DNA of 64,000 nucleotides. Origin: an uncultured Saprospiraceae bacterium. Its GTDB lineage: Bacteria; Bacteroidota; Bacteroidia; Chitinophagales; Saprospiraceae. The position numbers and the translations under genes were made by a program. The notes beneath the pieces are model-generated. The model was not told where the DNA came from. It did no database searches and saw nothing but the letters and a program-made list of their open reading frames with translations. Below are positions 13,073 to 20,285 of the stretch, piece after piece (positions within the stretch are counted from its first letter, which is position 1; each line of letters starts with the position of its first letter). Where the stretch lies: positions 1-64,000 of the forward strand of contig CALGNN010000076.1 of NCBI GenBank assembly GCA_937961455.1, read 5' to 3'.

Positions 13073-13747
13073 ATGAAAAATAGTAAAACCCTTCTTGCAC
13101 TGACGATAATTGCAATTTTCACTTTTCAATTGTCTGGCCAGGTAGCCATTAATACAAGTTTTCATACAAATAGAATATCAGATAAGGATCCTCAGTTAAG
13201 TCAAGACAATCTTTATGATGCCTTTACTATGGGTGCTGGTGTAGGAGTTGATTATTGGTTTAGACTAAAAAACCATAGATTAGAATTCACTCCTGAACTC
13301 AGTTATCAAAGAGAGTTGGATACGAGATCAGAAAAGCTTCCTGCATTACAAGCATCAAGTTTCCAATTTAAATTTAATACCAATATTTATCCTTTGGATT
13401 TTTTAAATGATTGCGAATGCCCCACATTTGATAAAGATGGAGAATTTCTAAAGAAAGGTTTTTTCATCAGTTTACACCCTGGTATTGATTATGGAAATTT
13501 AAGAACCAGAGGAGAAGACATCACAACTCCAATAAATGATGAACATTTTTGGTTTATTGCAGGAGCTGGAGTAGGCTTTGATTTTGGTGTTTCAAAATTA
13601 TTAACCATTACTCCCTATTTTAGATGGCTTAGATATTTGAATGCAGATTTTCAAGATCAAGCGTTTAATTTTAATCAAAACAATTTTGGAGTTAGATTGA
13701 GTTTGAGAGCAGATTATGTTCGCAATCAAAGAAGAAGAGGATGGTAA
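13073..13747 (+). CDS. Outer-membrane beta-barrel protein, function unknown
   Basis: The 224-residue product has a Sec signal peptide (MKNSKTLLALTIIAIFTFQLSGQ) and then alternating amphipathic beta strands (FRLKNHRLEFTPELSY, FQFKFNTNIYPLDFL, FWFIAGAGVGFDFGV, LTITPYFRWLRY). It ends NFGVRLSLRADYV, like other OMP_b-brl porin-like proteins, although a few basic residues (RNQRRRGW) follow the last strand. A loop containing NDCECPTFDKDG has a close Cys pair. It is probably an 8-stranded outer-membrane barrel. The function cannot be read. It is transcribed away from rimO. Confidence 0.75.
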   Translation: MKNSKTLLALTIIAIFTFQLSGQVAINTSFHTNRISDKDPQLSQDNLYDAFTMGAGVGVDYWFRLKNHRLEFTPELSYQRELDTRSEKLPALQASSFQFKFNTNIYPLDFLNDCECPTFDKDGEFLKKGFFISLHPGIDYGNLRTRGEDITTPINDEHFWFIAGAGVGFDFGVSKLLTITPYFRWLRYLNADFQDQAFNFNQNNFGVRLSLRADYVRNQRRRGW

Positions 13748-13800: not shown

Positions 13801-13830
13801 GAATGCTTTGTTTTAAACATAAAAGCATTC
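13801..13830 (+). other. 5' leader hairpin before the ilv leader peptide
   Basis: GAATGCTTT (13801-13809) and AAAGCATTC (13822-13830) form a perfect 9-bp stem with a 12-base loop in the ilv leader RNA, 24 bases before the leader-peptide ATG. It has no T run, so it is not a terminator. It may stabilise the leader or pace the polymerase. Confidence 0.45.
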
Positions 13831-13854
13831 ATATTAGCAATTCAATTTTTACAA

Positions 13855-13908
13855 ATGTTAAATATTATTTCTCTAGTAGTCATTATTATTATCGTGGTAC
13901 ACACTTGA
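13855..13908 (+). CDS. ilv operon leader peptide (attenuator control peptide)
   Basis: This 17-codon frame reads MLNIISLVVIIIIVVHT and stops with TGA. Twelve of seventeen residues are Leu, Ile or Val, including an uninterrupted run of eight (VVIIIIVV) at codons 8-15. It lies 70 bases before ilvD and is followed by a strong hairpin with a T run, the classical arrangement for ribosome-mediated attenuation. When charged Ile, Val or Leu tRNA is scarce, a ribosome would stall in this run and block formation of the terminator. The composition and place make this a confident call, although no database comparison was possible. Confidence 0.85.
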   Translation: MLNIISLVVIIIIVVHT

Positions 13909-13937
13909 CCAAAGGAGACTTTATTATAAAATAATTT

Positions 13938-13973
13938 AAAAGCTTTTCTCCATGAGAAAAGCTTTTTTTTTTT
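13938..13973 (+). terminator. Attenuator terminator hairpin of the ilv operon
   Basis: A perfect 13-bp stem (13938-13950 with 13954-13966, loop CAT) is followed by an unbroken T run to 13973, only 5 bases before the ilvD ATG. Alternative pairing is visible: GGAGA (13914-13918) can pair with TCTCC (13947-13951) inside the 5' arm, giving an antiterminator. It can also pair with TCTCT (13870-13874) inside the leader-peptide coding sequence, which would free the terminator. This matches the 1:2, 2:3, 3:4 logic of amino-acid attenuators (inference from pairing by eye). Confidence 0.85.
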
Positions 13974-13978
13974 GAACT

Positions 13979-15661
13979 ATGGACAAAGATTTAAACAAAT
14001 ACAGCAAGACGATTACTCAGGATGACACACAACCGGGTGCTCAAGCGATGCTTCATGCTATTGGACTAGATACTGAGGACCTAAAGAAAGCTCAAGTTGG
14101 AATTGCGAGCACTGGATGGCAAGGAAATCCTTGTAATATGCATCTTAATTTTCTTGCAAGTCAAATTAAAAGAGAAGTAGATAATCAATCACTCATAGGT
14201 TTGATTTTCCATACAATTGGAGTTAGTGATGGAATGTCAATGGGTACAAAGGGCATGCGTTTTTCCCTACCTTCTAGAGATATTATTGCCGATTCTATTG
14301 AAACTGTGATGAATGCGCAATGGTACGATGGATTATTAACGGTAGTTGGATGTGATAAAAATATGCCTGGAGCCATGATGGCAATTGGAAGATTAAACAG
14401 ACCTTCGATATTAGTCTATGGAGGAACTATTGCACCAGGAAACTACAAAGGCCAAGATTTAGATATTGTTTCAGCCTTTGAAGCACTTGGCAAAAAAACC
14501 GCAGGAGAAATTGCCCAAGAAGAATTTAAAGCAATCGTAAAAAATGCATGTCCAGGAGCTGGCGCTTGTGGAGGAATGTATACGGCTAATACTATGGCTT
14601 CTGCTATTGAAGCTCTAGGAATGAGCCTTCCCTTTAATTCTTCTTTACCTGCAGCAAGTATTGAAAAAGCTGATGAAGCTGAAAGAGCTGCAAGCGCAAT
14701 TCGACACTTGATGGAACAAAATATACTTCCATCTGATATTTTATCAAAAGCCTCATTTGAAAATGCTTTAAGAATCATCATGGTCTTAGGAGGCTCAACA
14801 AATGCGGTCTTACATATGATTGCTATGGCAAAAGCTGCTAATGTAAAATTGAACCTTGATGACTTCCAAAGAATTAGTGATGAAACGCCATTTCTTTCTG
14901 ATTTAAAGCCTAGTGGAAAATACGTAATGGAAGATTTACATAAGATAGGTGGTGTTCCAGCGGTCATGAAGTATATGTTAAAACAAGATTTATTAGATGG
15001 CAGTTGTTTAACTGTAACTGGCAAAACTGTTGAAGAAAATTTAGCAGATGTTCCTGACTTAAAAGAAGCTCAGCAGATTATTCATCCTACTAGCGCACCC
15101 TTAAAAGCAAGTGGCCATTTACAAATCTTATATGGAAATTTAGCTAAGGAAGGATGTGTAGCAAAAATTACAGGAAAAGAAGGATTGGTGTTTTCTGGCC
15201 CTGCCAAAGTCTTTAACGGTGAAGCTGCTACAAATGAAGCCATTCTAAATAATGAAATCAAAGAAGGGGAAGTTATTGTCATTAGGTACTCTGGACCTAA
15301 AGGTGCACCCGGTATGCCAGAAATGTTAAAACCGACTTCCCTCATCATGGGTGCAGGACTTGGCAAGAAAGTGGCATTGATAACTGACGGAAGGTTTTCT
15401 GGAGGAACGCATGGATTTGTGGTAGGGCATATTTGCCCTGAAGCTGAAACAGGAGGAATGTTGGCTTTTATTGAAGATGGTGACATTATAACCATCGATG
15501 CAGACAACAATACATTGAGTGTAGATCTTACTGAAGAAGAATTACAGAAAAGAAAAACAGCCTGGCTAAAACCTGAAAAGAGTTTTACTAATGGAATATT
15601 AAAAAAATACTATCATACTGTTTCATCCGCAAGTGAAGGATGTGTTACTGATGAGTTTTAA
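13979..15661 (+). CDS. ilvD: Dihydroxy-acid dehydratase
   Basis: It dehydrates 2,3-dihydroxy-isovalerate and -methylvalerate to the 2-keto acids of valine and isoleucine synthesis. The 560-residue length is normal. Iron-sulfur and active-site blocks are visible: GNPCNMHL near residue 45, [12 protein letters not shown] near 122, and the highly conserved [16 protein letters not shown] near 193. Later come [16 protein letters not shown] and the C-terminal [23 protein letters not shown]. It is the first gene of ilvD-ilvB-ilvN-ilvC-ilvA and starts immediately after the attenuator T run, so it is the gene most directly controlled by it. Confidence 0.97.
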
Positions 15662-15670
15662 AATTGAATT

Positions 15671-17416
15671 ATGCCGCAAGCAAAAGCAAAATCGAAGTCT
15701 AAGAACAGAAGTAAAATAGCTATGCCAAAGCAAATAAGTGGTGCCGAAGCCATACTTAAATGCCTAATCAAAGAGCAAACAGAGGTCATCTTTGGATATC
15801 CAGGTGGTGCCATCATGCCTGTATATGATGCTTTGTATGATTACAGAAAAAAACTAAAACATATACTTCCTCGTCATGAGCAAGGTGCCATTCATGCTGC
15901 TGAAGGATATGCTAGGGTTACAAGAAAAACGGGTGTTTGCATGGCTACTTCTGGTCCAGGAGCTACCAATCTTATGACCGGGCTTTGTGACGCACTCATG
16001 GATTCAGTTCCACTAGTGTGCATCACTGGGCAAGTATTCGCCCATGTGCTTGGAACGGATGCATTTCAAGAAACAGATGTAATTGGATGCACCATGCCGA
16101 TCACTAAATGGAATTATCAAATCACTCATGCATCTGAAATTCCAGAAGTTTTCAAAAAAGCCTTCCACATAGCTAATTCAGGAAGACCAGGACCCGTTGT
16201 CATTGATATTACTAAGAATGCTCAAATTGAAAAATTTACATTCAAATACGACAAGCAAGCTACCATACGATCTTATCATCCTGTACCAAAAATTAATAAT
16301 CAAAAATTAAAGGATGCAGCTGCGTTGATCAATAATTGTAAAAAGCCATTAATCTTAGCAGGCCATGGAATTCAAATTGCTCATGCACAAGAAGCCTTTA
16401 AAAAATTTGTAGAAAAATCAGGCATTCCACTTGCATGCACCATCCATGGATTGTCATCCATTCCATCAACTCACCCATTACACAAAGGAATGCTAGGCAT
16501 GCATGGAAATTATGGTCCAAATATTTTAACTAATGAGTGCGATGTTTTGATTGCCATAGGTATGCGCTTTGATGATAGAGTGACAGGCGACCTATCTCGT
16601 TATGCTAAACAAGCTAAGGTGATCCATATTGAAATTGATCAATCAGAAATAGATAAGAATGTAAAAACTGATGTAGCCATTCATGCTGATGCAAAAGAAG
16701 CCTTGCAAAAACTGCTACCCCTTGTAAAAAAGAAAACCTACCCCACTTGGCTTAAAAAGTTTGCCAAATGTGAAAAAATAGAATTACAGAAAGTAATCAA
16801 GAAAGACTTCGCCAAAGAAAAATCTGGAGAAATAAAAATGGCTCAAGTCATTAAAATGCTCTCAGACAAAACCAAAGGAAAAGCAATTATCGCAACAGAT
16901 GTAGGTCAGCATCAAATGATTGCAGCTAGATATTATAGCTATGAAGACACCAACCAATGGGTAAGTTCTGGTGGTGCTGGCACAATGGGCTATGGATTAC
17001 CTGCTGCTTTTGGTGCAAAGTTAGCCAAGCCAGAAAAAGAAGTATTTGCCATAATTGGAGATGGTGGATTTCAGATGACCATTCAAGAGTTGGGCATGTT
17101 AAGCCAATGGAATGTTGCTGTCAAAATTATTCTTTTAGACAATGAATATTTGGGTATGGTTAGACAATGGCAACAGTTGTTTTTTGATAAGCGCTATTCG
17201 GAAGTAGCTTTACAAAATCCAAATTTTATAAAAATTGCAGAAGGGTTTGGCGTGGATGGAGAGGAAGTATCCGAATATAAAGATCTGTCAAAAGCACTTG
17301 ATCGGACGATTGCTTATGAAGGCCCTTACTTATTGCATGTTCGAGTAAAGAAAGAGGACAATGTCTTTCCTATGATTGCAAGTGGTAAATCCGTTTCAGA
17401 AATAACTTTAGAATAA
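15671..17416 (+). CDS. ilvB: Acetolactate synthase, large catalytic subunit
   Basis: A thiamine-diphosphate enzyme that condenses two pyruvates, or pyruvate and 2-ketobutyrate, in the first common step to Val, Leu and Ile. The 581 residues contain the N-terminal TPP domain with the catalytic Glu region ([15 protein letters not shown]), SGPGATNL, the middle FAD/nucleotide domain, the C-terminal TPP-binding [13 protein letters not shown]...LDN motif, and MVRQWQ, typical of anabolic AHAS. The first 17 residues are Lys/Ser-rich; an in-frame ATG at 15722 right before PKQISGAE is an alternative start. The stop overlaps the ilvN start by one base (TAATG). Confidence 0.96.
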
Positions 17417-17958
17417 TGAAAACACAACAATACACACTCTCTGTATTTACAGAAAACCAAACAGGTCTTTTATCAAGAGTTGTTGCGGTATTCACTAGAA
17501 GACATCAAAACATCGATAGTCTAACGGTCTCCCCATCATCTATGGAAGGCATTCATCGATTTACCATTGTGATTGAATCGACAGAAGATCAAGCAAAAAA
17601 AATTGTTGCTCAGTTAGACAAGCAAGTTGATGTGCTAAAAGCATTTTATTATACAAGCGATGAATTGGTTTATCAAGAGATTGCATTATACAAGGTACCA
17701 ACTGAAGTATTTGCTGATGGCGATTCCGTAGAACGTTTAATAAGAAAACATAATGCAAGAATTCTATGCATTGAAAAAAAATATACAGTTATCGAAAAGA
17801 CTGGATTTGAGCTTGAGACAGAGGCGCTTTTCAATGAATTAAAGAAAATAGGTATATACGAATTTGTGAGATCAGGAAGAGTAGCAGTAACAAAACCTAT
17901 GGAACAACTCAACGCGTATTTACAAACATTAGGTATACATAGTTCAAAATCAAATTAA
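17416..17958 (+). CDS. ilvN: Acetolactate synthase, small regulatory subunit
   Basis: This 180-residue regulatory partner of IlvB has an N-terminal ACT domain (YTLSVFTENQTGLLSRVVAVFTRRHQNIDSL, residues about 6-78) that binds valine for feedback inhibition, and a C-terminal small-subunit domain (about 80-165) ending FVRSGRVAVTKP. It starts one base inside the ilvB stop codon, so translation is probably coupled, matching the fixed stoichiometry of the two subunits. Confidence 0.95.
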   Translation: MKTQQYTLSVFTENQTGLLSRVVAVFTRRHQNIDSLTVSPSSMEGIHRFTIVIESTEDQAKKIVAQLDKQVDVLKAFYYTSDELVYQEIALYKVPTEVFADGDSVERLIRKHNARILCIEKKYTVIEKTGFELETEALFNELKKIGIYEFVRSGRVAVTKPMEQLNAYLQTLGIHSSKSN

Positions 17959-17976: not shown

Positions 17977-19023
17977 ATGGCAAAGTTAGTTTTTGGTGGC
18001 GTCGAAGAAGACGTTGTAACCCGTGAAGAATTTCCATTGAGCAAAGCTCAAGATGTTTTAAAAGAAGAAACCATAGCTGTAATTGGCTATGGCGTACAAG
18101 GTCCTGGCCAAGCTTTAAATTTAAAAGACAATGGCATCAATGTAATCGTTGGGCAGCGCAGTCCTTCCAAATCTTATGATAAAGCTATCGCAGATGGTTT
18201 TGTTCCAGGTGAGAGCTTATTTAGCATTGAGGAAGCTGCAGAGAAAGCTTCTATCATTTGTTACTTACTTTCTGACGCAGCACAAATTGCGATGTGGCCA
18301 ACGATAAAAGAAAGACTTAAACCAGGGGATGCTTTATATTTCTCTCATGGATTCGGCATTACTTACAAAGAAAGAACGGGCATCATTCCTCCAGAAGGTG
18401 TTGATGTTTTTTTAGTAGCTCCTAAAGGCTCTGGAACCAGTCTAAGAAGAATGTTTCTTGCTGGGAGAGGACTCAATTCATCATTTGCCATATTCCAAGA
18501 TGCAACTGGCAAAGCCAAAGAACGTGTTTCTGCTTTAGGTATAGGTGTGGGTTCTGGATATCTATTTGAAACCTCTTTCAAAAAAGAAGTTTACAGTGAT
18601 TTGACTGGAGAGCGCGGAACACTTATGGGAGCCATCCAAGGATTATTTGCAGCTCAATATCAAGTATTAAGAGCTAAGGGTCACTCCCCTTCTGAAGCAT
18701 TCAATGAAACTGTAGAAGAAGCTACACAAAGTTTATATCCATTGGTAGCTGAAAATGGAATGGATTGGATGTATGCCAATTGTTCTACAACTGCACAGAG
18801 AGGTGCCTTAGATTGGTGGAAAAAATTTAGAGATGCTACCCTTCCCGTTTTTGAAGAATTATATGATAGCGTAGCTGAAGGTCACGAGGCACAGTTGTCT
18901 ATAGACAGTAATAGCAAAGAAGACTATCGTGAAAAATTAGAAGAGGAATTAAAAGAATTGAGAGATTCCGAAATGTGGAGAGCAGGAAAAACAGTTAGAA
19001 GTTTGAGACCTGAAAATAAGTAA
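17977..19023 (+). CDS. ilvC: Ketol-acid reductoisomerase (NADP+)
   Basis: It isomerises and reduces acetolactate or acetohydroxybutyrate to the dihydroxy acids used by IlvD. The 348-residue size is that of a class I enzyme. The Rossmann loop is GYGVQGPGQA starting at Gly37, followed by VGQRSPSKS, which contacts the NADP phosphate. PKGSGTSLRR is the KARI-typical PKG motif. The C-terminal knotted domain shows DLTGERGTLMGAI and VEEATQSLYPLVAENGMDWMY with metal-binding acidic residues. The GVQGPGQA loop resembles the variety also seen in eukaryotic enzymes rather than the E. coli form. The stop overlaps the ilvA start (TAATG). Confidence 0.96.
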   Translation: MAKLVFGGVEEDVVTREEFPLSKAQDVLKEETIAVIGYGVQGPGQALNLKDNGINVIVGQRSPSKSYDKAIADGFVPGESLFSIEEAAEKASIICYLLSDAAQIAMWPTIKERLKPGDALYFSHGFGITYKERTGIIPPEGVDVFLVAPKGSGTSLRRMFLAGRGLNSSFAIFQDATGKAKERVSALGIGVGSGYLFETSFKKEVYSDLTGERGTLMGAIQGLFAAQYQVLRAKGHSPSEAFNETVEEATQSLYPLVAENGMDWMYANCSTTAQRGALDWWKKFRDATLPVFEELYDSVAEGHEAQLSIDSNSKEDYREKLEEELKELRDSEMWRAGKTVRSLRPENK

Positions 19024-20285
19024 TGCAACCTTCTACAGCACGCATACTTCAACCTGAACACATTGAACAGGCTTCCAAAGTTTTAAAAAACATTGCAGTC
19101 AGAACTCCTTTAATCCTGAGTCCTGGACTAAGTGATAAGTATGACTGCAATGTTTACTTAAAAAGAGAAGACCTCCAAGTGGTGCGCTCCTATAAAATAA
19201 GAGGTGCCTATTACAAAATGCAAGGTCTAAGTGCAGATGTTCTACAAAACGGAGTTATTTGTGCTAGTGCAGGCAATCATGCTCAAGGTGTCGCAATGGC
19301 AAGTAAACTTTTAGAAATACCCGCTAAAATTTATATGCCAAGTACGACACCCAAACAGAAAATTGAGAAGGTCAAATTGTTTGGAAAGCGTTTTGTTGAA
19401 CTGGTGATCATAGGAGATAATTTTGATCAATGCTATAAACACGCTATTGATTATTCTGTAAAACATCAAATCCAATTTGTTCACCCTTTCGATGACATAG
19501 ATGTCATCACAGGACAGGGTACAGTTGGATTAGAAATTTTTGAAGATGCCAACTTCCCTATTGACTATTTATTCTTAGGAATTGGTGGTGGTGGACTAGC
19601 ATCTGGTGTTGGATCTTACTTTAATGAAAAGAGTCCAAACACCAAAGTCATTGGTGTTGAACCAGCTGGTGCACCAGCCATGAAGTATTCTATTCAAAAA
19701 AATCAGTTAATAAATCTTGACAAGATTGATGCTTTCGTAGATGGTGCAGCTGTCAAACAAGTTGGGGCAAAGTGTTTAAGTATCTGTAAAGAGGTTTTAA
19801 CTGAGGTGACTACCGTGCCTGAGGGCAAAATTTGCAGCCAAATACTTTCACTTTACAATGAAGAAGGTATTGTCGTCGAACCAGCAGGCGCACTGACGAT
19901 TGCTTCTTTAGATAGTTACAAGTCTGAAATTAAAGGAAAAAATATTGTATGTCTGGTAAGTGGTGGTAATAATGATATCACTAGAACAGAAGAGATCATG
20001 GAGCGATCACTCCTATTTGAAGGACTAAAACATTACTTCCTCATCCGCTTTCCACAAAGAGCAGGCGCATTAAAGGAATTTCTGAATAATGTTCTAGGAC
20101 CTGAAGATGACATCACCCAGTTTCGGTATACTAAAAAAACTTCTCGTGAATCAGGCCCCGCGCTTGTAGGGATACAATTAAAGCATAAAGATAAATACGA
20201 AGAACTCATTGAACGTATGAATGCTTTTAGTATTGACTATACCACACTAAATGACAAAGAGACCCTTTTTCAGATGCTTGTTTGA
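19023..20285 (+). CDS. ilvA: Threonine ammonia-lyase (biosynthetic)
   Basis: A PLP enzyme that deaminates threonine to 2-ketobutyrate, the committed step to isoleucine. The 420 residues include the PLP lysine in RSYKIRGA (Lys58), the ASAGNHAQGVA phosphate region, GIGGGGLASG and the VSGGNND end of the catalytic domain near 325. A single ACT-like regulatory domain follows (HYFLIRFPQRAGALKEFLNN onward), so this is the short, one-regulatory-domain form. Being last in the ilvDBNCA operon ties isoleucine supply to the same attenuator. No leu genes are present here. Confidence 0.95.
   Translation: MQPSTARILQPEHIEQASKVLKNIAVRTPLILSPGLSDKYDCNVYLKREDLQVVRSYKIRGAYYKMQGLSADVLQNGVICASAGNHAQGVAMASKLLEIPAKIYMPSTTPKQKIEKVKLFGKRFVELVIIGDNFDQCYKHAIDYSVKHQIQFVHPFDDIDVITGQGTVGLEIFEDANFPIDYLFLGIGGGGLASGVGSYFNEKSPNTKVIGVEPAGAPAMKYSIQKNQLINLDKIDAFVDGAAVKQVGAKCLSICKEVLTEVTTVPEGKICSQILSLYNEEGIVVEPAGALTIASLDSYKSEIKGKNIVCLVSGGNNDITRTEEIMERSLLFEGLKHYFLIRFPQRAGALKEFLNNVLGPEDDITQFRYTKKTSRESGPALVGIQLKHKDKYEELIERMNAFSIDYTTLNDKETLFQMLV

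Follow-up and report, generated by a model that had tools for sequence, protein, structure and literature searches.

In Escherichia coli, amino-acid attenuators carry a leader frame rich in the amino acid of the operon that they control. Comparative genomics by Vitreschak et al., published in 2004 in FEMS Microbiol Lett, reportedly yielded branched-chain, His and other leader candidates, some of them in Bacteroidetes/Chlorobi. The attenuators of the E. coli ilvGMEDA, ilvBN, leu, his and trp operons share their scheme with that proposed for the locus described here: antiterminator and terminator are mutually exclusive and the position of the ribosome is the switch (PMC1183508). A 2010 survey of terminators listed leader-peptide systems as known only from Proteobacteria and Actinobacteria and added its own cases from Firmicutes (PMC2965389). 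The ilvBNC attenuators with upstream frames in Actinobacteria and Staphylococcus likewise combine branched-chain leader frames with ilv control outside the Proteobacteria (PMC1262725, PMC10272879, PMC5794164).

For the Bacteroidota, a literature search for attenuators returned only one study and a passing remark in another (PMC9723704 and PMC7366714, respectively). The former suggests leader-peptide attenuators upstream of amino-acid operons of Flavobacterium psychrophilum (PMC9723704). Ribosomes of this phylum make no use of Shine-Dalgarno sequences (PMC9976891, PMC6847099). Here, the region upstream of ilvD in a 64,000-nt stretch of DNA from an uncultured Saprospiraceae bacterium (the window; draft genome of 4.6 Mb) is analyzed together with ilvD upstream regions of its relatives.

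Elements of the ilvD leader region

NCBIfam models confirmed all five gene identities of the ilvDBNCA operon proposed in a preliminary description of the locus (Table 1). Neighboring genes overlap or almost touch, and the closest named relative of the ilvD product belongs to a Saprospiraceae bacterium (72% identity). The gene upstream of the leader (13073-13747, same strand as ilvD) has no NCBIfam match.

Table 1. Features of the ilvDBNCA locus and its putative attenuator in the window.
Feature	Position	Strand	Remarks
Possible promoter	13807..13837	+	TTTG at 13807-13810; CATATTAG at 13830-13837, a poor match to TAnnTTTG
Leader frame MLNIISLVVIIIIVVHT	13855..13908	+	ATG at 13855, stop codon TGA at 13906-13908; control codons Ile/Val
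Segment 1, TCTCT (within the leader)	13870..13874	+	Complementary to GGAGA; would form a protector hairpin in the absence of a ribosome
Segment 2, GGAGACTTT, antiterminator 5' strand	13914..13922	+	Predicted by fold and by covariation with the terminator arm; starts 5 nt past the stop codon
Antiterminator hairpin	13914..13951	+	Stem of 14 pairs interrupted by bulges, its upper part AT-rich; cannot coexist with the terminator
Intrinsic terminator	13938..13973	+	13-bp hairpin at 13938-13966, T run at 13963-13973 (11 T)
ilvD, dihydroxy-acid dehydratase	13979..15661	+	TIGR00110, 731.7 bits; heads the controlled operon
ilvB, acetolactate synthase large subunit	15671..17416	+	TIGR00118
ilvN, acetolactate synthase small subunit	17416..17958	+	TIGR00119
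ilvC, ketol-acid reductoisomerase	17977..19023	+	TIGR00465
ilvA, threonine ammonia-lyase	19023..20285	+	TIGR02079

The leader frame reads as first described, with 12 branched-chain residues (Ile, Val or Leu) among its 17 codons and an uninterrupted run of eight Ile/Val residues, or nine if the preceding Leu is counted. Codons for the products of the operon are enriched at this locus: when the 231-bp intergenic region was shuffled, the best of 3000 shuffles reached 10/12 Ile, Leu and Val residues as compared to 11/12 observed, and none of the 3000 yielded a short ORF as rich in these residues as the leader. The perfect 13-bp terminator with a long T run, which follows the frame and precedes ilvD, was borne out as well. 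Its arms (13938-13950 and 13954-13966) form 13 perfect pairs around a 3-nt loop with a fold energy of -14.5 kcal/mol, and a terminator scan returned the same stem.

The pairing of GGAGA (13914-13918) with the 5' arm of the terminator, termed the 2:3 pairing, was found to extend into the longer antiterminator hairpin upon folding. Its positions and those of segment 1 had been given correctly, while the complementary TCTCC (13947-13951) does not lie wholly within the 5' arm, as its last C belongs to the loop, which is a trivial deviation. For a transcript ending at 13956, the antiterminator is the MFE structure (P 0.92). With a stalled ribosome masked at the Ile codons and polymerase at 13956, the antiterminator core reaches P ~0.95, and masking a ribosome at the stop codon reduces this value to zero. 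In the full naked RNA, the TCTCT:GGAGA pairing (1:2) has a P of about 0.7-0.8. At full-length equilibrium, the terminator always outcompetes the antiterminator of the window, and the attenuator switch must therefore be kinetic. The 2:3 core of the window itself comprises only five contiguous pairs; it places the own arm within the top 12% of arms, but not at the top.

The possible promoter matches the Bacteroidota TAnnTTTG box at 4/6 positions, which is weak; it would place the start of the transcript near 13841, leaving about 14 nt to the leader ATG. Among relatives, an exact TAnnTTTG box occurs within 60 nt of the leader ATG in 11/60 cases as compared to 2.5 expected, a moderate enrichment. 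A sigma-70 promoter scan, whose model is unsuited to Bacteroidota, gave matches no more common than in shuffled sequences. The rarity of Shine-Dalgarno use noted in the preliminary description holds for these loci, as a Shine-Dalgarno-like tetramer precedes only 4/82 leaders and 2/76 ilvD starts. The nucleotide A is frequent upstream of the ATG; both traits agree with what is expected for Bacteroidota (PMC6847099, PMC9976891).

Occurrence among related ilvD loci

A total of 214 ilvD upstream regions was collected from relatives, 212 of which were scored for a frame of 8-45 codons with at least six Ile, Leu or Val residues in ten, followed 5-70 nt downstream by a terminator. This pair was identified in 66/212 real upstream regions, in varied gene contexts, as compared to 1/212 reverse complements and 0/1060 dinucleotide shuffles. 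An Ile/Val-rich frame followed by a terminator is thus kept in many relatives, as would be expected from the initial proposal. When the terminator rule was slightly relaxed, the number of distinct pairs rose to 85-87, located at about 80 loci throughout the Bacteroidota. A few genomes are present in both collections, and identical sequences were dropped. The relaxed set contains a handful of likely spurious frames (e.g., the first of locus L065), which weaken and do not inflate the tests made on it. Named carriers include Saprospiraceae, Elizabethkingia, Sediminibacterium and Flavobacteriaceae, the latter with Aquimarina, Dokdonia, Lutibacter, Winogradskyella, Flavobacterium and others.

At 134 of the sampled ilvD loci (about 60%), no leader was detectable. 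An ORF ends less than 120 nt upstream at 50 of these, where ilvD is therefore probably not the first gene; 12 have no upstream ORF, and the remaining 72 offer space for a leader, yet none was detected. The preliminary description had named relatives that keep ilvD without an Ile/Val/Leu-rich frame as evidence against an attenuator. Taken to the letter, such relatives exist, but the sense of the objection does not apply, because loss or replacement in some lineages says nothing against an attenuator where it is kept.

Two leader-plus-terminator units were observed in tandem upstream of ilvD at five loci, belonging to genomes of the Saprospiraceae family (L151, L194) and of Flavobacteriaceae (L058, L071, L080).

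Covariation and ribosome geometry

Covariation was assessed by pairing the 33 nt around each stop codon with its own or with permuted terminator arms. Pairing with the own arm averaged -11.0 kcal/mol as compared to -7.36 kcal/mol (sd 0.28) for permuted arms, a value not reached in any of 10,000 permutations. For 41 representatives less than 70% alike, the respective values were -11.5 and -7.5 kcal/mol (z -10.6; 0/20,000). When the segment was slid upstream, the signal dropped to z -5.8 at 15 nt and to -1.2 at 30 nt. The pairing cores are diverse and include GAGAATGG, ACAGAAAG, GAGAAAGG, GGAGGCG, TGATA, GTTAGGA and others, each complementary to its own arm. At the sequence level, this match of diverse cores to their own arms is compensatory change, that is, covariation for the predicted antiterminator. 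Shared descent is an unlikely cause of the pairing signal: the permutation does not consider phylogeny, but the signal is still strong among the 41 dissimilar representatives. In addition, the upper stems of the antiterminators of relatives fold better than with shuffled spacers. The alternate pairing of GGAGA with the terminator arm, first proposed for the window, consequently covaries across the phylum, and compensatory change backs an antiterminator that is exclusive with the terminator. The proposed pairing of GGAGA with TCTCT fared less well. Both segments are present, and the 1:2 pairing outperforms permuted pairings in relatives (z -5.4), but this signal is much weaker than that of 2:3 and lies in coding sequence.

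Counted from the first base of the stop codon, segment 2 starts at a median of 2 nt; counted from the last codon of the Ile/Val core, the median is 14.5 nt (mostly 10-18 nt). The footprint of a ribosome extends about 12 nt past the stop codon (Korolev et al., PMC4833913). As the ribosome covers about 12-15 nt ahead, a stall within the core would leave segment 2 free, while a ribosome at the stop codon would cover it.

Amino-acid specificity, codon choice and a His leader upstream of hisG

In the leaders, Ile accounts for 31%, Val for 16% and Leu for 5% of residues, as compared to 7%, 7% and 9%, respectively, in ilvD of the same loci. This bias toward Ile and Val with little Leu is consistent with an ilv operon, but not with membrane peptides in general. 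The Val codon GTC makes up 46% of Val codons in the leaders, including that of the window, but 14% in ilvD, whereas GTT amounts to 13% and 35%, respectively. The GTC bias is equal for leaders with TGA and TAA stop codons. An origin of this bias in a GTCA:TGAC pairing over the stop codon was considered and rejected, as leaders with TAA stops behave alike and GTCA is equally common without TGAC. The genome encodes tRNA-Val with the anticodons GAC and TAC and tRNA-Ile with the anticodon GAT. Following standard wobble rules, GTC is decoded only by the GAC isoacceptor. The choice of GTC in the leaders would therefore fit the selective-charging theory of control codons (PMC1183508).

In the same genome, a His-rich leader (MKINQLHHHHLLNRLRA; L229, contig C96) lies 108-162 nt upstream of a hisG match and is likewise succeeded by a terminator. 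Poly-His leaders upstream of hisG with the same layout as the ilv leader were also found in relatives (L218, L219, L221, L225, L227, L231). Across six cases, hisG leaders pair with their own arms at -10.7 as compared to -7.2 when crossed. A comparable Leu or Thr leader was not detected upstream of leuA and thrA of the window's genome.

Other elements at related ilv loci

About 28 ilvD loci of relatives (e.g., L008, L041, L058, L144, L160) carry a fixed-spacing element, TcGTAAg-N11-TAA-N5-TG-N5-CA-N5-TTA, roughly 130-275 nt upstream of ilvD; it is absent from the window. The element occurs in Flavobacteriaceae and Saprospiraceae whether an attenuator is present or not. A second TcGTAA follows the first at 67-68 nt, with 27 such spacings as compared to 0.23 expected per spacing. 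The element, which lies between the terminator and ilvD of relatives, has no match in Rfam and gave no consensus RNA fold with alifold; its dyad suggests a putative protein-binding site. A match to the SAM-II riboswitch (64 bits, gathering score 44) is located near the ilv locus of Gaetbulibacter (L080 2339-2398, minus strand), and a match to Flavo-1 RNA above the gathering score lies downstream in the ilv locus of Aquimarina (L071 7036-7151).

Proposed mechanism and alternatives

The region upstream of ilvD very probably represents a ribosome-mediated transcription attenuator of ilvDBNCA that senses charged Ile-tRNA and Val-tRNA and is loaded without a Shine-Dalgarno sequence. In this model, the transcript would begin slightly ahead of the leader, at whose AUG a ribosome would load in the same Shine-Dalgarno-independent manner and then trail RNA polymerase. 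With ample Ile and Val, it would reach the UGA codon and cover GGAGA just past the stop, allowing the terminator at 13938-13966 to fold and transcription to stop in the T run. If Ile or Val is short, the ribosome would stall in the Ile/Val run; its leading edge, some 12-15 nt further on, would not reach GGAGA. The antiterminator at 13914-13951 would then fold first and capture the 5' arm of the terminator, and polymerase would enter ilvD. If no ribosome is loaded, TCTCT of the leader may hold GGAGA, with termination as the result.

Several other explanations were weighed. The hairpin might merely be the terminator of the upstream gene and the Ile/Val frame a chance product of AT-rich DNA. This gene is indeed encoded on the same strand, and no second terminator was found between 13740 and 13860; nevertheless, the explanation appears improbable, given the recurrence of the pair in real upstream regions of varied context and its near absence from shuffles and reverse strands, the arm-specific covariation, and the replacement of Ile/Val by His codons before hisG. 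Even less credence is given to a functional hydrophobic mini-protein (a membrane peptide or type I toxin) whose position before ilvD is coincidental. The peptide is short and strongly hydrophobic, but contains Ile and Val with little Leu, Phe, Ala and Gly, unlike membrane peptides in general. Moreover, nothing but the amino-acid bias is conserved in its sequence, while the frame, its stop codon and its pairing segment hold constant positions with respect to the terminator, and its His counterpart upstream of hisG is not a hydrophobic peptide.

A comparably slight chance is assigned to switching of the hairpins by a T-box, a riboswitch or an RNA-binding protein instead of a ribosome. Pairs of terminator and antiterminator are common to all these classes. 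A search of the window for Rfam amino-acid leaders such as those of Thr and Phe, riboswitches and T-boxes, however, gave no family at its gathering score (best match Phe_leader, 22.3 bits versus 55), with sub-threshold matches at chance level, and the conserved upstream feature is a run of Ile/Val codons at a fixed distance before segment 2. Translational attenuation, in which the hairpin masks the ilvD start until a stalled ribosome exposes it, is considered the least probable of all. It would agree with the window, where 12 nt separate the end of the hairpin from the ilvD ATG, but not with the long T run typical of an intrinsic terminator. As the distance between terminator and ilvD ranges from 6 to >400 nt in relatives, the hairpin is concluded to control transcription rather than access to the ilvD start.

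Comparison with known systems

Although the mechanism is already known, there is strong evidence, derived from comparative sequence data, that the window contains such a device and that related ones recur across the phylum under selection. The chances appear about even that they form a phylum-wide Bacteroidota class (Ile/Val before ilvD, His before hisG) with an origin separate from the proteobacterial leaders and read by ribosomes that ignore Shine-Dalgarno sequences. Such a class would imply close coupling of transcription and translation, as well as control codons, notably GTC for Val, chosen for sensitivity to tRNA charging. As the mechanism requires ribosomes to keep up with RNA polymerase, it offers a sequence-defined test of coupling in Bacteroidota. 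Likewise, the device of the window would allow a test of how ribosomes load on a frame of 17 codons behind a short 5' region, and the strong GTC bias of the control region renders the tRNA-charging theory testable outside the Proteobacteria.

The preliminary description had presented amino-acid attenuators as best known in proteobacteria. The idea already has a precedent within the phylum in the F. psychrophilum study (PMC9723704). That suggestion shares with the window the phylum, the proposed mechanism and the amino-acid biosynthesis operons, while its main text names no operon, does not mention ilv and presents no covariation. The present analysis adds covariation as evidence that amino-acid attenuators occur in a phylum that does not use Shine-Dalgarno sequences. 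The Actinobacteria and Staphylococcus ilvBNC attenuators belong to other phyla and to users of Shine-Dalgarno sequences. Compared to the E. coli leaders, the attenuator of the window lacks a Shine-Dalgarno sequence and does not match the Rfam leader families in sequence or structure. Its segment 2 is located at or just after the stop codon, and its predicted antiterminator is a single compact hairpin with an AT-rich top.
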